The notes beneath the pieces are model-generated. The model had not been told where the DNA came from. It worked only from the letters and a program-made list of their open reading frames with translations, and did no database searches. 10,609 nucleotides of DNA. Source: Gammaproteobacteria bacterium. Lineage in GTDB: Bacteria > Pseudomonadota > Gammaproteobacteria > Magnimaribacterales > Magnimaribacteraceae. Both the position numbers and the translations under genes were made by a program. Shown here one piece after another: positions 221 through 9,493 of the stretch (position 1 is its first letter; each line of letters begins with the position of its first letter). The stretch covers positions 12,210-22,818 of the forward strand of contig PAOE01000021.1 of the NCBI GenBank assembly GCA_002707915.1, written 5' to 3'.

Positions 221-226
221 ATGAAT

Positions 227-2434
227 ATGAAAAATAATTTCAACTTTTTGGGGTTCATATTAATTATCTTCCTCGTAAGCTGCAGTAGTTCTGAGGAAGA
301 GCAAATTACTGAGGAACAAACTTTATTGGGTTCAACGCAAATAGGTTTAATTGATGATCAAAGAATACTAGACGCAGAATCTGAACCCGGAAATTGGTTG
401 GCTCATGGAAGGACATATGAGGAGCGCAGATTTTCACCGCTGAAAGGCATAAATAAAGAAAATGTCTCTGAGTTAGGCCTTGTATGGAGTAAAGACATGG
501 GGACAAATAGAGCATTAGAAGCCACCCCTATAGTTGTTGATGGAATTATGTTCTTCACCAGCACTTGGAGCAGAGTTTACGCAGTTGATGCGTTAACGGG
601 AGAGACTATTTGGAAATTTGATCCTAAAGTTCCTGGAGAATGGGCTAGAAAAGCGTGTTGCGATATTGTGAATAGAGGTGTTGCGGTTTATAACGGCAAA
701 GTTTACTCAGCAAGCTTAGATGGAAGATTATTTGCAATAAACGCTGAAAATGGAGAGCTAGTCTGGGAAGTTGACACCATTATTGATAGAACTAGATCGT
801 ATACCATCACAGGTGCACCCAGAGTTGCAAAAGGAAAGGTCTACATAGGTAATGGCGGAGCCGAGTATGGTGTGAGAGGTTATGTAACTGCTTACGATAC
901 AGAAAGCGGAGATCAGGTTTGGAGATTTTTCACTGTTCCAGGAAATCCTGATTTAGGGTTTGAAGATCCAGCAATGGAAATGGCTGCCAAAACTTGGAAG
1001 GGAACTAATTGGTGGGAGTTCGGAGGTGGTGGAACTGTCTGGAACTCCATAGTCTATGATCCAGACTTTAATAATGTTTATCTCGGCGTTGGAAATGGGT
1101 CACCTTGGACTAGAGATATAAGATCTCCTGGTGGAGGGGATAATTTATTTCTATCATCTATAGTGGCTGTAAATGCTGATACAGGGATGTATAAGTGGCA
1201 TTATCAAACTACTCCTGAAGATAATTGGGATTACACCGCTGTCCAAGATATGGCCCTAGCAGACATGGAAATTGATGGAGAGATGAAAAAAGTCTTACTT
1301 CAAGCACCTAAGAACGGTTTTTTCTATGTCATTGATAGAGAAAATGGAAAAGTGCTACGAGCCCATCCTTTCGCCGCTGTCACTTGGGCAACTCACGTAG
1401 ATCTAGAAACTGGAAGACCAGTAGAAAATCCAGCTGTTGATTACACTGAAAATGGAGCTTGGGTATTGCCTGGGCCACTAGGTGCACATAATTGGCAAGC
1501 TATGTCGATAGATTTAGAGGCCGGATTGGCGTATATACCTACTCAGGAAAATCCTTTCTTCTATGCAATACAAGAAGACTATAAAAAAACTGGCGTATTC
1601 AAATGGACACCTGGTCAATGGAATATGGGTATTGAAATGAGCTCACTTGCTCAAAATATCCTTAATAATTTAGAGTCTCAGCCTAAGCCCGGAGGTTTTT
1701 TAAAAGCTTTTGATCCTCTGACAGGAGAAACTAAGTGGTCTGTACCAATTCCACATTACTGGAATGGTGGCGTTTTAGGTACTGCAGGTGGTCTTGTATT
1801 TCAAGGCGATGCATTAGGAATGTTTTCTGCTTATGATAAAGAGACTGGAGAGAGACTATGGGAATTTAATACTTATACTTCAATGTTAGCTCCACCAATA
1901 ACTTTTGAAATTGATGGAGAGCAGTATGTTTCAATCTTAACTGGCTCTGGTGGTGGAGATCTTTTTGGAGGAGAGCCTCTACCCCCTATTGAAATTCAGG
2001 CTTCATTAACTTACAACAATTTTGGTAGGTTGCTAGTATTCAAACTAGGTGGAAAAGAAACTCTTCCAATTCCTAATGTAAGAGATAAGACAATCCCTGA
2101 ACAACAACTAATGCAAGTAAGCATAGACCAACTCCAAGACGGTGAAAGTAAATATAATCAAAATTGTGCCGTTTGCCATGGTTTTGTTGTGAAGTCTGCT
2201 GGCGGTATTCCAGATCTAAGAAAAATGACTGCTGGTACTCATGATGCTTTTAATCAAATTGTCTTGGAAGGACTTTTGGCAAGTAATGGGATGGCTTCAT
2301 TCTCAGATGTTTTGTCTGAAGAAGAAGTAGAGAACATTCATCATTATGTGCGTGCAAGAGCTCACGAAGATAGAGAAGTAGCGCTGGGAAATATGGAAGC
2401 TCCTCAGTATACTTGGTTCGGACAGGAAGAATAA
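227..2434 (+). CDS. Quinohemoprotein (PQQ- and heme c-dependent) alcohol dehydrogenase, lipoprotein
   Basis: Periplasmic enzyme that oxidises alcohols to aldehydes with PQQ and passes electrons to its own cytochrome c domain. Residue numbers count from the ATG at 221; 227 is the better start. Residues 4-21 are a lipoprotein signal with lipobox LVSC (C21) followed by SSSEEE, so the enzyme is probably lipid-anchored, with no inner-membrane retention Asp after the Cys. Residues about 55-610 form the PQQ beta-propeller. Visible landmarks are the vicinal cysteines C146-C147, the likely metal ligands E215 and N292, and the catalytic Asp D337 in DNWDYTA. The residue two after D337 is Thr, not Asp, which points to a calcium rather than a lanthanide enzyme. 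The C-terminal domain (about 630-720) has the heme site CAVCH (649-653) and a probable axial Met, M691. The length of about 735 residues fits type II or III quinohemoproteins. No PQQ synthesis or partner subunit genes are in the window. The alcohol substrate cannot be read from the sequence. Confidence 0.97.
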   Translation: MKNNFNFLGFILIIFLVSCSSSEEEQITEEQTLLGSTQIGLIDDQRILDAESEPGNWLAHGRTYEERRFSPLKGINKENVSELGLVWSKDMGTNRALEATPIVVDGIMFFTSTWSRVYAVDALTGETIWKFDPKVPGEWARKACCDIVNRGVAVYNGKVYSASLDGRLFAINAENGELVWEVDTIIDRTRSYTITGAPRVAKGKVYIGNGGAEYGVRGYVTAYDTESGDQVWRFFTVPGNPDLGFEDPAMEMAAKTWKGTNWWEFGGGGTVWNSIVYDPDFNNVYLGVGNGSPWTRDIRSPGGGDNLFLSSIVAVNADTGMYKWHYQTTPEDNWDYTAVQDMALADMEIDGEMKKVLLQAPKNGFFYVIDRENGKVLRAHPFAAVTWATHVDLETGRPVENPAVDYTENGAWVLPGPLGAHNWQAMSIDLEAGLAYIPTQENPFFYAIQEDYKKTGVFKWTPGQWNMGIEMSSLAQNILNNLESQPKPGGFLKAFDPLTGETKWSVPIPHYWNGGVLGTAGGLVFQGDALGMFSAYDKETGERLWEFNTYTSMLAPPITFEIDGEQYVSILTGSGGGDLFGGEPLPPIEIQASLTYNNFGRLLVFKLGGKETLPIPNVRDKTIPEQQLMQVSIDQLQDGESKYNQNCAVCHGFVVKSAGGIPDLRKMTAGTHDAFNQIVLEGLLASNGMASFSDVLSEEEVENIHHYVRARAHEDREVALGNMEAPQYTWFGQEE

Positions 2435-2435
2435 A

Positions 2436-2996
2436 TTACTGGTCTTGGATCAGTGTTTTGGGGGGAAGTTCAGGAGGAGGTACTTCAACAAATTCAAATG
2501 AAGGCCTCCCTTGTTCCTCTTCACCCGCCTGTACGTCATAAGGATTAGATTTATTACCCTCATTGTCCTTATTTAGCACGCCGTAAGTCTTTCTACCATT
2601 CAACCTTTCCCCTTCCTGTAACTTGTGCAATGCATCTTGTGCAATCCTGTGATTTTCTTTATTCCACTTAAGTTTAAAAGATCTTGGATCTCCAATAGGT
2701 TTTTTGGACTCATCTATTTCTTTAATCCAAAGAAATAATTCACCTTCATTGCTTCTAGCTTTATTGGGTTCTTGTATTACTACCCATAATATATTGAAGT
2801 CATCTGGCAATTCTTCCAATGTGGGCCAACCTAAAACACCAATATAACCTCTCCAACTAAACACATAGAAAATTGAAATAATAAAAATTGATGCTAATTT
2901 GAGCCTTTTTGAGAAATCAGTATAAAAACAAAAAACTATTAAAAGGACTACAATTACTACATAAGAAATACTTAAAATCAGCCTCTCTTCAAGCAC
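2436..2996 (-). CDS. Unrecognised two-span membrane protein, third member of a channel-like trio
   Basis: I cannot name a family for this 186-residue protein. It has two predicted membrane helices (about 7-26 and 33-52), a short WRGYIGVLGWPTLEELP linker, and then a soluble region of about 130 residues. That region contains GELFLWIKE, a charged helix rich in K, E and Q (about 113-131), and a proline-rich tail, VPPPELPPK. Two closely spaced helices imply that both ends lie on the same side of the membrane; which side is not certain. The start is GTG at 2996, one base after the stop of the preceding gene. A good Shine-Dalgarno sequence (AGGAAG, 3005-3010) lies 8 bases upstream. It is the last gene of the long minus-strand operon and follows the MotA-like and ExbD-like genes directly, so it is probably part of the same complex. 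It ends one base from the convergent dehydrogenase. Confidence 0.82.
   Translation of the reverse strand: MLEERLILSISYVVIVVLLIVFCFYTDFSKRLKLASIFIISIFYVFSWRGYIGVLGWPTLEELPDDFNILWVVIQEPNKARSNEGELFLWIKEIDESKKPIGDPRSFKLKWNKENHRIAQDALHKLQEGERLNGRKTYGVLNKDNEGNKSNPYDVQAGEEEQGRPSFEFVEVPPPELPPKTLIQDQ
2438..2459. terminator. Hairpin spanning the convergent gene junction, possible bidirectional terminator
   Basis: ACTGGTC (2438-2444) and GATCAGT (2448-2454) can pair into a 7-bp stem (one G-T wobble) with a 3-base loop. GTTTT (2455-2459) follows on the plus strand and a weaker AATTTATT tract on the other side for the minus strand. It lies right after the dehydrogenase stop and overlaps the last codons of the minus-strand gene ending at 2436. 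The stem is short, so strength is uncertain. Confidence 0.45.
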
Positions 2997-2997
2997 G

Positions 2998-3612
2998 TTA
3001 TTTTCTTCCTAAAGCTTTTGTAAGTAATTTTTTTGGGAGTTGATTAAGGTCTGAGATTTTTTTACTTCCATCAACCGAGAATCGTAATGCAGTTATTTCA
3101 TCTCCCACTCCATTTAAAAAATGTTGACCATAGTAAACAAGTTCAACAGATGGATTCAATTTTTCAACTTTCACAGTAACAGGTAAAGGTGTTTTGTAGT
3201 TTGATTTGTAATGCAATAAGTTAATTACATACTCGCCAGACTGAAGACCTCTAACTGTGACTGTCTCTTGATTAATAGGATTGGAAACAACCTCTCCTTT
3301 CATCGTAATAGTATCAGCCAAATTGCCCCGATCATCTCTGTCTAGATGCATTAAACCTGAATCCCTGTTGTGATACCAAACAAGACCTCCCTGGGGATCT
3401 TCAACCACTGCATCGACATCATCAGGGTGTTCATCAGGCCATTGAATAGAAATTAAAACTTCCGCTTTGGTGTTGATATTTCCAGACTCTTCAGAATTAT
3501 TTATGAGCATAAATGCTATTGCAAACATAAAGGCGAAACCAAGTAATGCATTGAATAGGAGATCAGTGAAGACATCCTGTTCTTCAGACCTTTGTAATGT
3601 CTTGTGTTTCAT
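2998..3612 (-). CDS. ExbD/MotB-like single-span protein with beta-rich periplasmic domain
   Basis: In 204 residues the protein has a short cytoplasmic N-terminus, one membrane helix (about 17-37) and a periplasmic domain (about 50-190). D17 in FTDLLFNALLG sits at the start of the helix, where ExbD, TolR and MotB carry their proton-binding Asp. The periplasmic part is neither a TolR/ExbD domain nor an OmpA-type peptidoglycan binder. Its run of VDAVVEDPQGG, VWYHNRDSG and LDRDDRG, followed by RGLQSGEYVINLLHY and PVTVKVE, recalls the beta-sandwich of YfaP/DUF2135 and related pre-peptidase-like domains. That is similarity by eye only. Its start codon overlaps the stop of the upstream MotA-like gene by one base (TAATG), implying coupled translation and equal supply. 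Likely role: the proton-carrying partner of the MotA-like channel. The partner it acts on is unknown. Confidence 0.75.
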   Translation of the reverse strand: MKHKTLQRSEEQDVFTDLLFNALLGFAFMFAIAFMLINNSEESGNINTKAEVLISIQWPDEHPDDVDAVVEDPQGGLVWYHNRDSGLMHLDRDDRGNLADTITMKGEVVSNPINQETVTVRGLQSGEYVINLLHYKSNYKTPLPVTVKVEKLNPSVELVYYGQHFLNGVGDEITALRFSVDGSKKISDLNQLPKKLLTKALGRK

Positions 3613-4214
3613 TAATATTCAGAATTGAGGTGATTGATGGTCTGACTTAAGCTTGAATCCAGAACGAAATACTGAAATTTAAGAATCATACTGGTTACTA
3701 GACCTGTTAGAGTTGTATAAAGTGCAACCGCCATACCGCCACTCATAGTAGAGAGAAGTTTTTGAAGAATTTCAGGGTCAAAATCTTTTATTTCTCCTAT
3801 CGGCAGAAGCATAAGGATAAAACCTATAACTGTTCCAGTTAGTCCTAATTTGAGAAGAACATCGACGGCCAAATAACCAACAGAATGTTTATTACTTAGT
3901 TCATCCTCGATTAACAAGAGATTATTCTTTTCTAAATTTTTATCTGTATTTAAAAGAAATCTACCTATTAAGGTATTTTCTTTGGGTTCAATTATGCTGG
4001 AAATTTCTCTATCTAAACTCAGAGCAACATAAAACCAATGAACAGTAGCAAGAACATAAATCGCAAGTATTATCATAGAGATCTTACTTCTATCTGATTC
4101 TACAATTAAATTAATCAATTCCAATTGGAACAATAAATAAAAGGAAAATAGTATTAATGTCAGTAATAATGACGCCTTCAATATCAAATAATTTGGCCTT
4201 TTAGAAATCAACAT
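3612..4214 (-). CDS. MotA/TolQ/ExbB-family proton channel protein
   Basis: This inner-membrane protein of 200 residues has four predicted helices (about 11-31, 45-65, 115-138 and 157-180), a MotA-like rather than TolQ-like count, and a cytoplasmic loop of about 50 residues between helices 2 and 3. Family marks are LGLTGTVIGF (123-132) in helix 3 and ALYTTLTGLVTS (164-175) in helix 4. Their threonines match the polar residues lining the proton path in TolQ and ExbB. It would form a pentamer-like channel around the single-span partner encoded immediately downstream (TAATG overlap). It is shorter than typical MotA and lacks that protein's large cytoplasmic domain. No flagellar, TonB or Tol-Pal genes are nearby, so the process driven is unknown. 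No clear Shine-Dalgarno sequence precedes it, and translation may be coupled to the GFA gene 3 bases upstream. Confidence 0.87.
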   Translation of the reverse strand: MLISKRPNYLILKASLLLTLILFSFYLLFQLELINLIVESDRSKISMIILAIYVLATVHWFYVALSLDREISSIIEPKENTLIGRFLLNTDKNLEKNNLLLIEDELSNKHSVGYLAVDVLLKLGLTGTVIGFILMLLPIGEIKDFDPEILQKLLSTMSGGMAVALYTTLTGLVTSMILKFQYFVLDSSLSQTINHLNSEY

Positions 4215-4217
4215 AAT

Positions 4218-4574
4218 TCAATCGTGGCTTGCTCCATCTATTAGCTTTATATTTATGTCAGATGGTATAAATATATCATCAACACACATGATATTAATAC
4301 TTATCTGCGAAGGATCTCTTCTTCTTAAGTGATGAGTATAGATGCCACAATTTTTGCAAAAAAAGTGTTGAGCTATCTCTTTATTCCATTGGTACTTAAG
4401 TAAATTTTCCTTGCCTTCACGCAGTATAAAGTCTTCTTTGCTAATAGGTTTCATAATAATCCCTTTTTTGAGACACAAAGAACAATTACACCTATACAAA
4501 TCTTCAAGAATCTCATGAGTGTAGAAACTGAATTTTACTTTCTGACAATGACAGGATCCGAAATATTCATTCAT
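4218..4574 (-). CDS. GFA/CENP-V family zinc protein
   Basis: Small 118-residue protein with the zinc-binding pattern of the GFA family. It shows GSCHC (C8, C10), RCNCSLC (C29, C31, C34) and FFCKNCG (C73, C76). The family is named after glutathione-dependent formaldehyde-activating enzyme, but most members, including ones this short, have no proven reaction. A glutathione-linked role is plausible because two GST-fold genes lie in the same operon. The start ATG overlaps the stop of the SDR gene by one base (TGATG). The protein seems complete; the length is slightly below the usual 120-150 residues. Expected location is cytoplasmic, as there is no signal peptide. Confidence 0.9.
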   Translation of the reverse strand: MNEYFGSCHCQKVKFSFYTHEILEDLYRCNCSLCLKKGIIMKPISKEDFILREGKENLLKYQWNKEIAQHFFCKNCGIYTHHLRRRDPSQISINIMCVDDIFIPSDINIKLIDGASHD

Positions 4575-5356
4575 CAGATATGTCCAGCTTGACCTCCATC
4601 AACCTCAATAGAGGTTCCGCTTATATAAGAGGCCGCTTCCGAGCATAAAAAAGTAACTAATGCTGCCACTTCCTCAGACGTTCCATAACGACCAACTGGA
4701 ACAGAAGATCCATTAGCTTTAATGACATCCTCCATATTTCCACCGGTTGCATTAGCAATTTCATTTGCGGCTCTTTCCCACATAGCAGTGTGAATTAGTC
4801 CCGGAAGAACCGAATTAATCAGAATGCCATCCGACCCATATTTTTTTGCTAAAGATTTCGAAATTGAAATCATTGCAGCCTTGGTAGCGCCATAATCAAT
4901 TAATGCAGCATTGGGATATTTCCCAGCTGAGCTCGAAATCATAACAACCCTCCCCCATTTCTTTTGTCTCATATATGGAAGGAAGGCCCTGGTGCATCTT
5001 ACTGCTGAAAGAAGATTAAGTTCATGCAAATCCTGCCAATCTTCATCAGTCATATATAAAAAGTTTCTTGAAGGCGATGCTCCAACATTATTCACAAGTA
5101 TATCTACTCCTCCTTCTGATAAAACATGATCTATAAATGCTTGAGTTGAATCTTTTTTACCCATATCTGCTACGAAACCATTTATTGACCCATTCTTAAC
5201 TTTTGTTGATGCTAACTTTGTCACAGATTCTTCTGTTCGAGCACAAAAGACAACATTTGCTCCATGTTCGGCTAACATTTTCACAGTCGCTTCGCCGATA
5301 CCTAAACTAGCTCCCGTAATCACTGCCCTTTTTCCACTTAAATCTAAATTTATCAT
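4574..5356 (-). CDS. Short-chain dehydrogenase/reductase (SDR), FabG-like
   Basis: Classical SDR of 260 residues with all the marks of an active enzyme. It has the cofactor motif TGASLGIG (14-21), NNVG (89-92), the active-site Asn N114, the catalytic Ser near 142, and Y155 with K159 in YGATK. It ends with the usual VDGG near the C-terminus. R40 at the end of the second strand (FCAR) favours NADP(H). Many such enzymes oxidise or reduce hydroxyl and keto groups on acyl, sugar or terpenoid substrates, and the substrate here cannot be read from the sequence. A strong Shine-Dalgarno sequence (AGGGGAG, 5363-5369) lies 6 bases before the ATG, inside the end of the upstream GNAT gene. This gene may therefore be translated well on its own within the operon. 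The context with an alkylglycerol-monooxygenase-like enzyme and GSTs suggests lipid or aldehyde metabolism, as inference. Confidence 0.97.
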   Translation of the reverse strand: MINLDLSGKRAVITGASLGIGEATVKMLAEHGANVVFCARTEESVTKLASTKVKNGSINGFVADMGKKDSTQAFIDHVLSEGGVDILVNNVGASPSRNFLYMTDEDWQDLHELNLLSAVRCTRAFLPYMRQKKWGRVVMISSSAGKYPNAALIDYGATKAAMISISKSLAKKYGSDGILINSVLPGLIHTAMWERAANEIANATGGNMEDVIKANGSSVPVGRYGTSEEVAALVTFLCSEAASYISGTSIEVDGGQAGHI

Positions 5357-5359
5357 TAA

Positions 5360-5830
5360 TTACTCCCCTAGAATTAAACTCATTTTAGTATTGCCTCTAT
5401 CATACCTTTCATCGTCGTTAAGTTCATTCAATACAAATCCACTGGAGAGATAGAGGTTAAGGGCAGGCTTTAGGGAATCATTGGTTATCAAAAATATTTC
5501 TCTCACTTTTCTTTCTTTCGAAAACTCAATGCATCTCTTCAGCAATTTTTTTCCAATCCCATTTCCTTGCAAATTTTTCCTGACGGACATCTTGGCCAAT
5601 TCAAATACATTTTCAGCAGTTGGAATCAATGCTGCAGTGCCCACCACATTTTCTTCCAAGATTGCAAAAAAAATCTCTCCTCCTTTCTTAATTACATATG
5701 ACTCTGGGTCTTGAAGAGTTTTTAGATCCTCTTGTTCCATAACAAAATATTCTTCAATCCATTCTCTATTGAGTTTTTCAAATGCGGATTTATATTCAAT
5801 ATGAAAAGGAACTATTCTTAAATTATCCAT
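5360..5830 (-). CDS. GNAT family N-acetyltransferase
   Basis: This 156-residue single-domain acetyltransferase would move an acetyl group from acetyl-CoA to an amine. The acetyl-CoA pyrophosphate loop is QGNGIGK (88-94) after the strand FELAKMSV, and the later N117 and YLSSGF (127-132) match the conserved helix and strand of the fold. The substrate is not identifiable; the general form resembles stand-alone GNATs acting on small molecules. The gene starts inside the end of the nucleosidase gene (8-base overlap) and stops 3 bases before the SDR start, so it is firmly in the operon. No Shine-Dalgarno sequence is seen, consistent with coupled translation. Confidence 0.94.
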   Translation of the reverse strand: MDNLRIVPFHIEYKSAFEKLNREWIEEYFVMEQEDLKTLQDPESYVIKKGGEIFFAILEENVVGTAALIPTAENVFELAKMSVRKNLQGNGIGKKLLKRCIEFSKERKVREIFLITNDSLKPALNLYLSSGFVLNELNDDERYDRGNTKMSLILGE

Positions 5831-6383
5831 TTAAACTATTAAGCAAAATCCCAAATGCCTCTCCCCCATCTGATACATTCTTTTTCCAATCTTCAGTAGC
5901 ATTTTCATTTGCTCGATCACTGACATATTTGAAACAAAAATAATTTATATTCTCAATCAAACAAAGTTTAGCAAGTGCATAAGCCTCCATATCATATAAA
6001 TCTGTATCGATCTTTTGAGCCGAGGTGACAAAGCTATCTCCTGTACCACAACTTAATCCAGGTCTATCAAAAGAAATATGACCTATTTCATCGTTTAGAG
6101 TAATGCCTAGTGGAAGACCTATGTCAGTTAAGTCCATATCTCTTTGCTTGAAAGTGGTTACTTCATAAATTCCATATAAATCATCCCTTGATGAGCCAGC
6201 AGTCCCAAAGTTAATAACATTTTCTGGCAGTTCTTCCCTAAAAGCTCTAGTTGCAGAGATAATTGCATTGACTTTGCCTATACCGGAGTATAAAACTCGC
6301 CATCCTTCTGCTTGTTTAAGGCTTAATTCTTGCTCCATGGCAACAATAATAAGAGTATTTTCTTTGTTTATATCAGTCTTCAT
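5823..6383 (-). CDS. Short nucleosidase of the MTA/SAH nucleosidase family
   Basis: Purine nucleoside phosphorylase/MTAN-fold protein. It is predicted to cleave adenine from methylthioadenosine or S-adenosylhomocysteine. Visible family features are AMEQEL with E19 (equivalent to the E12 position of E. coli MTAN), NFGTAGS (58-64), CGTGDSF (112-118), YDMEAYALAKLC with E133 (equivalent to E174), and YVSDRA with D156 (equivalent to the catalytic D197). At 186 residues it is about 45 shorter than E. coli MTAN, missing mainly the helix and strand before the GTGDSF segment. The catalytic residues are kept, so it looks like a compact subfamily rather than a broken gene. It overlaps the apt gene upstream by 11 bases and the GNAT gene downstream by 8. 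Pairing with apt supports adenine release followed by adenine recycling. Whether it prefers MTA, SAH or another nucleoside is open. Confidence 0.88.
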   Translation of the reverse strand: MKTDINKENTLIIVAMEQELSLKQAEGWRVLYSGIGKVNAIISATRAFREELPENVINFGTAGSSRDDLYGIYEVTTFKQRDMDLTDIGLPLGITLNDEIGHISFDRPGLSCGTGDSFVTSAQKIDTDLYDMEAYALAKLCLIENINYFCFKYVSDRANENATEDWKKNVSDGGEAFGILLNSLNG

Positions 6384-6888
6384 AACTTACAAGGCTGATG
6401 ATTGGCATTTCTAGTTTAGATGATCCTTTCAGCGACTTAAGCTCAATAACAACTGCTCCTCCTATGACTTTAGCTTCTTGAGATTCCAATAAGTCTTTGG
6501 CACATTTCATAGATCCTCCTGTTGCGAGCAGGTCATCTATGATGACTACAGATTTACCCCTCAAATCATTTTTTTGCATACTTAATGAACTACTGCCATA
6601 TTCAAGCTCGTAACTTTTTTCGATGAGATCTCCCGGAAGTTTATTAGGTTTCCTTATCATCAAAGCACCTACCCCAAGGCTCTCTGCCACTAAAGTGCAG
6701 AATAAAAATCCTCTAGCATCAATTCCTGCAATATATTTAGGAGAAAGCGGTTTGATGGCCTTAGTAAAACTTTCTTTAAGAAGTTTTAAGGCTTCAGGCT
6801 CAGCAAGTAAAGGACTTATATCTCTGAAAAGAATTCCCTTAGATGGAAAATCAGGATAGCTTTTAATCCACTTATGCAAATCTGCCAT
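6373..6888 (-). CDS. apt: Adenine phosphoribosyltransferase
   Basis: Cytoplasmic enzyme that joins adenine and PRPP to give AMP. It has 171 residues, close to the bacterial norm of about 175-185. Clear marks are the N-terminal FPSKGILFRDISPLL, the adenine-side loop GIDARGFLF (55-63), the RKPNKLPG loop (79-86), the catalytic flexible loop YELEYG (93-98), and the PRPP-binding motif VVIIDDLLATGGS (114-126). It starts 4 bases after the monooxygenase-like gene and overlaps the nucleosidase by 11 bases. The product of that next enzyme is adenine, the substrate here. Nothing is missing or unusual in the sequence. Confidence 0.98.
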   Translation of the reverse strand: MADLHKWIKSYPDFPSKGILFRDISPLLAEPEALKLLKESFTKAIKPLSPKYIAGIDARGFLFCTLVAESLGVGALMIRKPNKLPGDLIEKSYELEYGSSSLSMQKNDLRGKSVVIIDDLLATGGSMKCAKDLLESQEAKVIGGAVVIELKSLKGSSKLEMPIISLVSYED

Positions 6889-6892
6889 GACA

Positions 6893-8095
6893 TTATGTTC
6901 TTCTTAAAAAAGGAAGAAATATGATATTTAAAAAGAAATAAATCATAAGTATATTGAGCAGAAAAAATTCGGGACTAAAAAAATAAAGATAGCAAAGGCC
7001 TATCAAGATGCCTACGAGCTTTGAGTACTCCAGATGCATTATCTTTTTAGCATCAAGCCATTGGGAAGTACAAAACATTGAGAAGATGACAAGCGCAATT
7101 AAAATTACACCATGATCGTATTCCAAATTTTTATCTGCTAACAGAACAACGGCTGCATATGCCATGCATAAAAATTGCACAAAAACATAGAATTTCGTAA
7201 AAGGTTTAATGTCAGGATCATGCTTTGTAAATGTTGTTGGATCAAAACTTTCATCTGAAGACCCCTCAGATGATCCATCTGGGCACCAACCTGTTTTTGC
7301 AGTCAATACATTATAAAAATTTCTAACAGAAATTGAGTAAGATAAATCTTTAAAGATTTTTTGATAAATATGAATGTTTGCTTTAACGGGATCGAAGGTT
7401 TTAATCGCTCCTCTAATTCCATAAACACATTCTTCATCGTCTTGTTCTTCCTGAAAAGTAGAAAATAACCTATCCCAAATGATAAAAACTCCTCCATAAT
7501 TCTTGTCAATATATAAGTCATTCTGAGCATGATGAACTCGATGATTTGAGGGAGTTACAAAAAATAATTCGTACCATCCTAACTTGGGGATATGTCTCGA
7601 GTGCACCCAAAACTGGTAGATGAGATTCAGCGTGCCGACAGAAACCATAACATAGGAAGGAACACCGATTAAAAATAGGGGTATATAAAATATCCAGGAT
7701 ATGAAAAACCCAGTTCCAGTCTGCCTTAAAGCTGTAGAAAGGTTATATTCCTCGCTTTGATGGTGAGCCACATGCGATGCCCAAAATATTTGTCTCTCAT
7801 GACTGAATCTATGAAACCAATAGTAAAAAAAATCATAAGCTACAAAAGCGAAGATCCAAGTAATCCATAAATTACTATCCATTCTCCACAGTGCAAAGTG
7901 TGTTTCAATCTGGTAATAGACATAGCCACTAAAGCCAATCTTGAGTATTCCACTAGTACCTCGCAAAGAGCCCATAAATAAGCTACTAATGGTGTCGTTT
8001 AATTTATAAGTGTTTTTATTTATCAATTTTCCATAAGCTAATTCCAAGAGAAGAGCCAATAGAAAAAATGGTACTGCTATTTCAACGTAGTCCAT
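6893..8095 (-). CDS. Alkylglycerol-monooxygenase-like membrane di-iron enzyme (sterol desaturase superfamily)
   Basis: Integral membrane oxygenase of 400 residues from the sterol desaturase/fatty acid hydroxylase superfamily. The histidine clusters that bind two irons are complete: HRFSH (95-99), HVAHH (108-112), HSRH (165-168) and NHRVHH (184-189). The stretch YIDKNYGGVFIIWDRLFSTF (195-214) and the following YGIRGAIKTFDPVK are very like the TMEM195/AGMO branch, which in animals cleaves ether lipids to glycerol derivatives and a fatty aldehyde. Helices flank the catalytic part, and four or so extra C-terminal helices (about 300-397) form a second membrane block after a Ser/Asp-rich linker (270-290). 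The substrate in this organism is unknown; hydroxylation of another lipid is equally possible. The gene lies 3 bases after the second GST-like gene, with no Shine-Dalgarno sequence. Confidence 0.93.
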   Translation of the reverse strand: MDYVEIAVPFFLLALLLELAYGKLINKNTYKLNDTISSLFMGSLRGTSGILKIGFSGYVYYQIETHFALWRMDSNLWITWIFAFVAYDFFYYWFHRFSHERQIFWASHVAHHQSEEYNLSTALRQTGTGFFISWIFYIPLFLIGVPSYVMVSVGTLNLIYQFWVHSRHIPKLGWYELFFVTPSNHRVHHAQNDLYIDKNYGGVFIIWDRLFSTFQEEQDDEECVYGIRGAIKTFDPVKANIHIYQKIFKDLSYSISVRNFYNVLTAKTGWCPDGSSEGSSDESFDPTTFTKHDPDIKPFTKFYVFVQFLCMAYAAVVLLADKNLEYDHGVILIALVIFSMFCTSQWLDAKKIMHLEYSKLVGILIGLCYLYFFSPEFFLLNILMIYFFLNIIFLPFLRRT

Positions 8096-8098
8096 AAA

Positions 8099-8878
8099 TT
8101 ACATTTTGTACCAATCTAAATAAGTTCCCATTACATCTGAGAATTCTTTCTTATTACACAAATTTTTAAAATGTTTGAACGTCAAGGGATAATCCGTTTG
8201 AAAATTTTCGCTTATCAAGGATAAATTTTTACTTTTCAATTGATTGAGATAATGTCCTTCCCTAAGGAATTGCGCAAATTCACAAACGAAAGATATATCT
8301 GCAATGCTAAGTGAGTCTCCTGCAAGAAAATTATTTTTTGATAAAGAATTTTCTAGCCCATCCATATAAAACTGATATGCAGATTTAGTTCGCTCGTAAG
8401 TATATTTTGTTATATCTTCAAGCTCTAAGAGATAAACTTGAAATTCTCTGGAAAAGACAAGATTTGCATCCAAGTAACTATCTATTCTAGACTTTAGATT
8501 TATGTCCTCACCTCCGTATAGAGTTTTATCCTTACACTCCCTAGCTACTGCACGTAAAATACTGTTGGATTCAAAAACACCTAAATGCTCATTCCCTACA
8601 AAACCCGCAGGAACAGTTCCAAATGGATGCTGATTTATGAATTCATCCGTCTTATAGAGAGATCCTTTAAAGCCCCTTTTACTTATCCTTTCATATGACT
8701 TCAAGTTGTCTTTGTCATCTTCTGATATAGGTCGTGCTTCAAAGTCCCATAGCCAATTGGGCATATTGTTAGGTTTATCGCCAACAACTTCCAAATCAAG
8801 TCCTCCAAGTTTTGCAGTTATCATTGACTTCCAAACTCTCGGATTTGGAAGATAAGAAAAAATTCTAATATTGCTCAA
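8099..8878 (-). CDS. Glutathione S-transferase-fold protein with long N-terminal-domain insert
   Basis: This 259-residue protein has a thioredoxin-like N-terminal domain and an all-helical C-terminal GST domain. The glutathione-site pattern is present: HPFGTVPA with the cis-proline (V89-P90) and FESNSI with E103-S104. The C-terminal N-capping motif is LAGDSLSIADIS (185-196). About 45 extra residues (roughly 36-80) sit between the second helix region and the cis-proline loop, unusual for a plain GST. The VPA and ESNSI segments recall eEF1B-gamma-type and related GSTs. The start is TTG at 8878. A later ATG (residue 19) would delete the first strand, so TTG is preferred; it lies 3 bases after the stop of the upstream GST. 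No clear N-terminal catalytic Ser, Cys or Tyr stands out, so enzyme activity is uncertain. Confidence 0.9.
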   Translation of the reverse strand: MSNIRIFSYLPNPRVWKSMITAKLGGLDLEVVGDKPNNMPNWLWDFEARPISEDDKDNLKSYERISKRGFKGSLYKTDEFINQHPFGTVPAGFVGNEHLGVFESNSILRAVARECKDKTLYGGEDINLKSRIDSYLDANLVFSREFQVYLLELEDITKYTYERTKSAYQFYMDGLENSLSKNNFLAGDSLSIADISFVCEFAQFLREGHYLNQLKSKNLSLISENFQTDYPLTFKHFKNLCNKKEFSDVMGTYLDWYKM

Positions 8879-8881
8879 AGC

Positions 8882-9493
8882 TTATTGGGTTTCTATAGCT
8901 TTTTTAAATGCCGGTCTTGATTCCAGCCTTTCTACGTAAGCCTTTATATTGCTCATGTCGTCTGAAACACATCCCAGTCTATTGCTCATAAAACAAGAAT
9001 GGCCGAGCATAATATCGGCACCAGAAAAATCACCTATCAGATAATCTTTACCTTCAAGGTTTTCATTAACTGGTTTTAATGCATTATTAAGCAACCTCTG
9101 AGCTTGTCCCAATACTGTCTCATCTCGTCTTTCTGGGGGTAATAAAACTGTATGGACAACTATTGTGTTCATAGGAGGCATAACCATTCCTTCACAGTAA
9201 TGGAACCATTGTAGATATTTAGAAAAATGTTCTGAATCTACGGAGGGCTTTAACCCGCCATTTTTATGCTTTTCAAGAATATAATCCGTGATAGCTCCTG
9301 ACTCCCAGATTTGGATATCGCCATCCTCTAATACGGGAACTCTTCCCAATGGATGTCTTGCTCTATGTTCATCCGATTTAAGATCGGTTGGACTAAATGC
9401 CATTTTATTAAGTTCATATGGAAGTTCTAATTCTTCAAGAAGCCAAAGAATCCTTCCAGCTCTTGAATTAGGTGCAAAATGCAGCTTTAACAT
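8882..9493 (-). CDS. Glutathione S-transferase
   Basis: Classical cytosolic GST of 203 residues. It would conjugate glutathione to electrophiles or act as a glutathione-dependent lyase or reductase. The N-terminal thioredoxin-like domain shows PNSRAGRILWLLEEL (8-22, S10 the likely active-site residue), HPLGRVPVLEDGD with the cis-proline V52-P53, and WESGAI with E64-S65. The helical domain has the folding motif LIGDFSGADIMLGH (152-165). It is first in the long minus-strand operon, with its own strong Shine-Dalgarno sequence (AGGAGA, 9499-9504, 5 bases before the ATG) and a promoter just upstream. Substrate cannot be assigned. It is only distantly similar to the GST-fold protein encoded next, so the pair is not a recent duplication. 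Confidence 0.96.
   Translation of the reverse strand: MLKLHFAPNSRAGRILWLLEELELPYELNKMAFSPTDLKSDEHRARHPLGRVPVLEDGDIQIWESGAITDYILEKHKNGGLKPSVDSEHFSKYLQWFHYCEGMVMPPMNTIVVHTVLLPPERRDETVLGQAQRLLNNALKPVNENLEGKDYLIGDFSGADIMLGHSCFMSNRLGCVSDDMSNIKAYVERLESRPAFKKAIETQ

Follow-up and report, generated by a model that had tools for sequence, protein, structure and literature searches.

Which machine, if any, is encoded by three tightly packed membrane protein genes in a bacterium akin to SAR86, a group abundant in the ocean? The genes lie in a window (the whole stretch of DNA analyzed) of 10,609 nt on contig PAOE01000021.1 of assembly GCA_002707915.1, a SAR86-like bin of 1.24 Mb that is 75% complete. The original prediction, drawn from the DNA letters, held that this three-gene set at 2436-4214, here called A, B, and C, may specify a single complex distinct from the Tol, Ton, flagellar, and Zorya systems. 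On balance, we favor the idea that A-B-C is a proton-driven machine of the MotA/TolQ/ExbB type that would serve PQQ-dependent oxidation in bacteria and a change of the host envelope in phages. In terms of architecture, the best reading is a variant of the 5:2 proton motors, the 5:2 ratio being predicted, that possesses its own axle and third subunit.

Gene linkage and the ring-type subunit A

All three genes reside on the minus strand. A (3612-4214) encodes a 200-residue membrane protein of the MotA/TolQ/ExbB family, the predicted ring subunit. B (2998-3612) encodes a 204-residue single-span protein, the predicted axle, in which a helix containing Asp17 is followed by a periplasmic beta-sandwich. 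C (2436-2996), which begins with GTG, encodes 186 residues comprising two N-terminal helices and a small alpha/beta domain, and is predicted to be a third subunit. Base 3612 is common to A and B, whereas B and C are one base apart (2997), in agreement with the one-base overlap and one-base gap described initially.

The three genes stay together. B is present in 32 genomes (E 0.001) of a class sample of 274 evenly drawn genomes, and inspection of the fetched loci with iterated profiles places A, B, and C together in 32 of the 34 B loci in the sampled genomes. The exceptions are L070, a short contig with phage-like neighbors on which A was not found, and L071, where a distant B stands alone. Of at least 386 further genome contigs that were confirmed, 80 were kept; on 76 of these, A, B, and C share a strand and lie within 2 kb of B; of the remaining four, three are truncated at the end of a contig and one has A further upstream. 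Among these contigs, the closest named relative of B belongs to a SAR86 cluster bacterium (L081, 91% identity). Up to 166 viral contigs were confirmed over three scans, and all three genes occur on 104 of the 114 that were kept, in some cases with one or more genes in between; two of the 104 equal in length phage isolates that are counted separately. Combined, these further loci hold A-B-C together in 180 of 194 cases. Homologs of the three genes, then, are not usually found apart. Residue coupling between A and B, and between A and C, is stronger than in shuffled pairings; the top pairs set B on TM3/TM4 and C on TM1/TM2 of A, a placement no better than that of the shuffles.

Residue conservation was counted over 218 aligned A-B-C sets, which are not deduplicated and have an effective number of about 120. 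Peptide patterns containing some of the scored B residues located 180 of the 218; the other 38 (32 bacterial sets and 6 from phage isolates) were found without patterns and constitute a motif-free subset. Linkage across loci and residue conservation in these sets rule out chance open reading frames and a single-genome oddity.

A belongs to the MotA/TolQ/ExbB superfamily, as was proposed. Specifically, window A matches PF01618 with E 6.5e-9 (36.1 bits against a curated cutoff of 22.9), and a profile built from 51 A sequences finds solved structures of MotA (the best, E 2.3e-7), TolQ (E 8.5e-5), ExbB (E 7.9e-4), and also PomA; the same profile matches 8vvn at E 0.015. The four-span topology originally assigned to A agrees with this family membership but not with a hydropathy cutoff, which gives three helices in window A, starting at residues 10, 43, and 112, and up to five segments in its relatives. 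By alignment to MotA and TolQ, Thr128 (codon 3831-3833) falls on the superfamily's TM3 GT position and Thr168 (codon 3711-3713) on its TM4 T position; window A thus carries both of the threonines looked for in this superfamily. No pattern search was applied to A, in contrast to B. Thr168 is retained in 215 of 218 sets and in all 38 motif-free sets, Gly127 is found in 218 of 218, and Asp41 is near-invariant (216/217). Thr128 is kept in 202 of 218 sets; in one viral group it is present in 12 of 24 and there is mostly replaced by Asn.

The predicted axle B and its companion C

In the structure model of B, the N-terminal membrane helix spans residues 10-37 and includes Asp17 (codon 3562-3564), and the periplasmic beta-sandwich, with its invariant acidic residues, occupies approximately residues 50-190. 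B is thus the single-helix, Asp-bearing partner expected in a 5:2 motor, and Asp17 is predicted to be essential. This residue is kept in 214 of 218 sets (110/110 viral, 104/108 bacterial), a retention that is high partly because loci were found by peptide patterns. Because some of these patterns include Asp17 or the DRDD residues, Asp17 was recounted by locus origin: it is present in 34 of 38 motif-free sets (28/32 bacterial, 6/6 phage isolates), in every locus fitting only the other peptide pattern (52/52 viral, 21/21 genome), and in 26 of 26 from two viral scans whose pattern omits Asp17. Ala replaces this Asp in four bacterial B proteins (L056, L059, L060, and L061), each of them in the motif-free set. 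Those four loci are precisely the ones with two C genes in tandem. The Asp of B and Thr168 of A, to which key roles had been assigned from a single sequence, are thus widely kept, and the residue set together with the gene order supports a proton passage between the A threonines and Asp17 of B.

Residues of the periplasmic domain are conserved as well. Trp58, Asp65, Asp67, Leu90, Asp93, Gly96, Glu116, and Gly126 are each present in 218 of 218 sets; Trp58, Asp65, Asp67, Asp93, Asp94, Glu116, and Gly126 are each present in all 38 motif-free sets. Since the acidic residues among the latter (Asp65, Asp67, Asp93, Asp94, and Glu116) are retained where no pattern guided the search, they suggest a metal site. 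The modeled fold resembles the beta-sandwich of TerD, and one of the solved matches (2kxt) is described in its title as calcium-binding. At the sequence level, hhalign of 96 B proteins against 5 TerD proteins (PF02342) revealed no homology (probability 0.5%). DUF2135 (PF09906) gives weak matches in 10 of the 96 B members, with a best E of 0.0039, and none for window B. The phage family phrog_1735 (673 positions, function unassigned) matches 45 of the 96, with window B aligned at positions 420-557, hinting that another phage protein harbors the same beta domain.

The proposal that the periplasmic domain of B is different from those of known systems holds. Window B has no match in Pfam, NCBIfam, or PADLOC at E values up to 5; an OmpA-like peptidoglycan-binding domain, as in MotB and ZorB, is found in it by neither Pfam nor PADLOC; and PF02472 is not among the families listed (25 of 65) for the 96 B members. 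Elsewhere, the same genome possesses sets of familiar type. Contig C36 carries a TolQ-like/TolR-like pair with TolB-like and Pal-like genes, recognized partly by eye. An Exb/Ton-like set on contig C39 (L073, genome G000) includes two adjacent PF01618 genes, one of them within a long protein. The ExbD/TolR proteins of the Tol-like and the Exb-like set both match PF02472 with E 1e-27. We give next to no credence to the possibility that A-B-C is an ordinary ExbBD or TolQR paralog: while A does belong to PF01618, window B lacks the Pfam match that its counterparts in the same genome readily obtain, its modeled fold is a TerD-like sandwich, and the third gene is constant.

The model of that third protein, C, contains helices at residues 2-25 and 30-55 and a disordered stretch at 141-156. 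Pfam matches of window C are at E 0.02 or worse, all below cutoffs and none to TonB or TolA; nothing is above cutoff in NCBIfam, and PADLOC gives no match.

Could these proteins form a regulated proton channel or sensor instead of a motor? The B domain would then gate a leak or signal the state of a metal or of the envelope to C. This explanation accommodates the invariance of Asp65, Asp67, Asp93, and Glu116, which extends to the motif-free sets, and the likeness of B to TerD and to the calcium-binding entry, as well as models of B and C that, the disordered stretch of C aside, have no long linker. We nonetheless consider it unlikely. The membrane Asp and the TM4 Thr are retained in phages too, as expected of a working axle, and some bacterial loci have neighbors suited to force transfer, namely lipoproteins or VWA/FHA proteins. 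Specifically, nine loci (L038-L040, L046, L047, L049, and L059-L061) share the order L,D-transpeptidase (YkuD), DUF302, A-B-C, VWA/FHA. The VWA/FHA protein in L046 and L039 has a signal-like start and one more hydrophobic stretch.

The PQQ-dependent alcohol dehydrogenase and other neighbors

Convergent with C, at a distance of one base, lies the gene for a PQQ-dependent alcohol dehydrogenase (221-2434, plus strand; TIGR03075 at 626 bits against a cutoff of 480; PF01011 and PF13442). Its product has a C-terminal cytochrome c domain and, judged by eye, a lipoprotein-like signal, and it is the only PQQ dehydrogenase over the cutoff in this incomplete genome. We regard it as an associated gene outside the membrane complex. 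The original view that no partner is nearby requires amendment: a partner of the Tol, Ton, Mot, or Zor type was not recognized in the window, but a frequent companion adjoins C.

How frequent is this companion? After deduplication, 56 of 98 bacterial loci contain the PQQ dehydrogenase cluster, in most cases convergent with C and a short distance beyond it (median gap 29). Because these 98 loci are weighted toward kin of the window, the class sample provides a fairer test. There, the enzyme exceeds the cutoff in 21 of 32 genomes with B versus 25 of 242 without B (p 2.1e-11, or 8.3e-11 without the window's own genome), and B and the enzyme co-occur in 15 of the 22 B-bearing families. A phylum sample, scored for B at E 1e-10, gives 12 of 13 versus 70 of 336 (p 1.5e-7; dropping G000 and G107, the two B-bearing genomes that the class sample also contains, gives 2.4e-6), with the qualification that genome counts are not independent, one family supplying 8 of the 13 B-bearing genomes. 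Among 61 relatives, where B and the dehydrogenase are linked neighbors, the enzyme (E 1e-60) is found in 29 of 29 with B and in 4 of 32 without. Proximity likewise exceeds chance, for 5 of the 20 co-bearing class-sample genomes have the enzyme no more than 8 kb from B (0.24 expected, P 2.4e-6). The remaining 11 of the 32 class-sample genomes with B have no PQQ dehydrogenase over the cutoff; five of the 11 belong to a single B subgroup of six rows, in which the sixth genome has the enzyme.

Families of PQQ catabolism and quinoprotein relay (TIGR03865, TIGR04557, TIGR04558, TIGR03861, and TIGR03864) also neighbor A-B-C, flanking it in unlike arrangements across lineages; A, B, and C themselves match none of them. 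Over their cutoffs are TIGR04557, TIGR04558, and TIGR03865 in L055, TIGR04557 in L041, TIGR03861 in L063, and TIGR03864 in L132 and L154. Below cutoff are TIGR03864 in L063, TIGR03861 in L050, and TIGR03075 in L154 and L155, and further PQQ-related neighbors were seen by tblastn alone. Eight loci (L048, L051, L054, L057, L058, and L064-L066) have none of the queried partners, with weak ABC matches in L051 and L054 only.

These eight loci fit the suggestion that the PQQ link reflects nothing but shared ancestry and linkage and that the task of the cassette is a general one in the envelope. So do the convergent arrangement, which is inherited throughout one clade, and the phage copies, which have no enzyme nearby. 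We find this suggestion rather doubtful, given that several PQQ-related families adjoin A-B-C in several unlike arrangements, that co-occurrence spans 15 families, and that B and the enzyme are closer than chance allows in an evenly drawn sample.

A link to lanthanide enzymes only was considered as a general rule and rejected, because the window enzyme has Thr two residues past the assumed catalytic Asp (DYT, versus DYD in L041 and L063 and DFD in L067). Asp versus Thr at this position is presumably a lanthanide marker in PQQ dehydrogenases.

On the other side of the set, three bases upstream of A, lies a gene for a protein of the GFA (glutathione-dependent formaldehyde-activating enzyme) family (4218-4574, minus strand; PF04828, E 1.6e-11). 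It holds the same place in 7 of the 98 deduplicated bacterial loci, with a median gap of 3, and is possibly a member of an operon with A-B-C. A short-chain dehydrogenase gene (4574-5356, minus strand; PF13561, E 9.6e-53) overlaps the GFA gene by one base and is another possible operon member. Next, at 5823-6888, a gene of the PNP_UDP_1 phosphorylase family overlaps one of the phosphoribosyltransferase family, and beyond these lie a 400-residue protein of the fatty acid hydroxylase superfamily (6893-8095, PF04116) and two adjacent glutathione S-transferase family genes (8099-9493). Among ten window neighbor proteins, PADLOC finds no Zorya model (ZorC, ZorD, or ZorE) at E 0.001; the two weak matches to other models, by an acetyltransferase (E 7e-4) and by the phosphoribosyltransferase (E 9e-7, ShosT model), are explained by the Pfam families of these proteins.

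Phage copies, a proposed mechanism, and known systems

Phages carry the set as well, a feature beyond what the first sequence reading foresaw. By tblastn against 50,697 phage records, B is present in 27, some of them duplicates of one phage; all 27 are Rhizobium or Sinorhizobium phages, including Pootjesviridae and phage 16-3. The six complete phage genomes inspected each have A-like and C-like genes in the vicinity of B, with zero to two genes intervening. A is short in these isolates (113-148 residues) and is devoid of most of the cytoplasmic loop, while B retains the membrane Asp and the beta domain, and C retains its two helices. On the viral contigs, PHROGs assigned phage functions to seven of ten representative neighbors (terminase, head maturation protease, primase, ERCC4 nuclease, exonuclease, protease, and endolysin), placed one in a family of unassigned function, and left two unmatched. 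An unrooted FastTree phylogeny of 153 B proteins splits bacterial from viral members with two changes of label, evidence against a recent transfer from hosts to phages. One set from a bacterial genome (L069, G214) has its B among the viral proteins and is possibly a prophage.

In 15 of 98 deduplicated viral loci, the upstream region on the same strand contains a cluster whose representative is trypsin-like, at a median gap of 87. Its members, seen upstream of A in L263 and others, are lipoprotein-like. Rhizobium phages 16-3 and X2_25 (L076 and L078) likewise have annotated proteases a short way ahead of A. A GDP-mannose 4,6-dehydratase cluster directly follows C in 15 of the 98 loci (L166 and 14 others), at a median gap of 4, as if translationally coupled. 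No PQQ dehydrogenase clusters near viral A-B-C copies.

Might the set instead be a weapon, a Zorya-like defense of bacteria against phages or a means by which phages exclude each other? The top PADLOC matches of A are ZorA models (E 5e-5), phages do carry A-B-C, and the dehydratase that immediately follows C at some viral loci hints at an altered surface. PADLOC is, however, silent on B and C, the ten window neighbors include no Zorya model, and within the order, A-B-C follows one family and its PQQ enzyme. We judge defense or superinfection exclusion very unlikely.

Returning to the proton-driven machine that we favor, we envisage the following mechanism. A would form a ring in the inner membrane and supply the threonines, and B would serve as the axle, carrying a proton on Asp17 and exposing in the periplasm a beta-sandwich that looks metal-binding. 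Proton passage between the A threonines and Asp17 would turn or shift B, whose periplasmic head would act on a partner in the envelope; C would accompany them as a regular membrane subunit. In this way, the machine could move or pull a target in the periplasm or envelope. Across most of the bacterial lineages seen, such motor work may serve periplasmic PQQ-dependent alcohol oxidation, and in some bacteria a lipoprotein or a membrane VWA/FHA protein is a likely outer partner. The phage version, neighbored by the trypsin-like protease and GDP-mannose dehydratase, probably alters the host envelope. We also entertain, tentatively, a more historical possibility: A-B-C, with its TerD-like, metal-binding axle head, may be an ancient motor apart from Tol, Ton, Mot, and Zor that evolved mostly in phages. 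Phages would then possess a complete proton-driven motor of their own, which would energize envelope remodeling as they infect, and a single bacterial branch would have been recruited to periplasmic quinoprotein oxidation.

If the favored mechanism is correct, A-B-C extends the proton motors by a member whose axle domain is different and whose third subunit is constant, and it links the proton motive force to periplasmic PQQ-dependent alcohol oxidation in SAR86, a connection that is testable. If the phage copies work, a phage-encoded proton motor becomes a concrete object of study. The open-access titles and abstracts searched contained no evident description of the A-B-C set.

How, then, does the set compare with known systems? 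Tol and Ton gene clusters combine a ring-type subunit, a single-span subunit with an Asp, and a third membrane protein. A-B-C clusters the same three kinds of protein as TolQ-TolR-TolA and ExbB-ExbD-TonB, but B carries a TerD-like beta-sandwich and not PF02472, and C, with its two helices, does not match TonB or TolA. Genes like tolA, tolB, pal, or tonB were not recognized among the annotated open reading frames of the window. The MotA-MotB stators resemble A-B-C in that the best solved match of A is a MotA chain; unlike MotB, window B has no OmpA-like domain, and flagellar genes were not recognized in the window. The likeness to Zorya ZorA-ZorB lies in the PADLOC matches of A, which differs in ending 16 residues past its last predicted helix and in being paired with a B that PADLOC does not match. 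A plain Exb, Tol, Mot, or Zor variant is therefore rejected, as the original prediction had anticipated, by the failed family membership of B and by a window in which such partners were not recognized.

The part of PMC12204202 drawn on here lists motility, phage defense, type I secretion, membrane stabilization, and nutrient import as known tasks of these motors. It further proposes TolQ-like motors, of unknown function, in which a vWA domain is carried directly on the axle Asp helix; they occur mainly in Proteobacteria and Verrucomicrobia and are mostly heterologous pairs without tolR-like genes. As far as that part of the source describes them, these vWA-axle motors and B share one principle, namely that another periplasmic domain is put straight on the Asp helix. 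A-B-C departs from them in bearing a TerD-like sandwich in that position, in its constant third gene, in its presence in phages, and, at some loci, in keeping a VWA/FHA protein as a separate product encoded after C.
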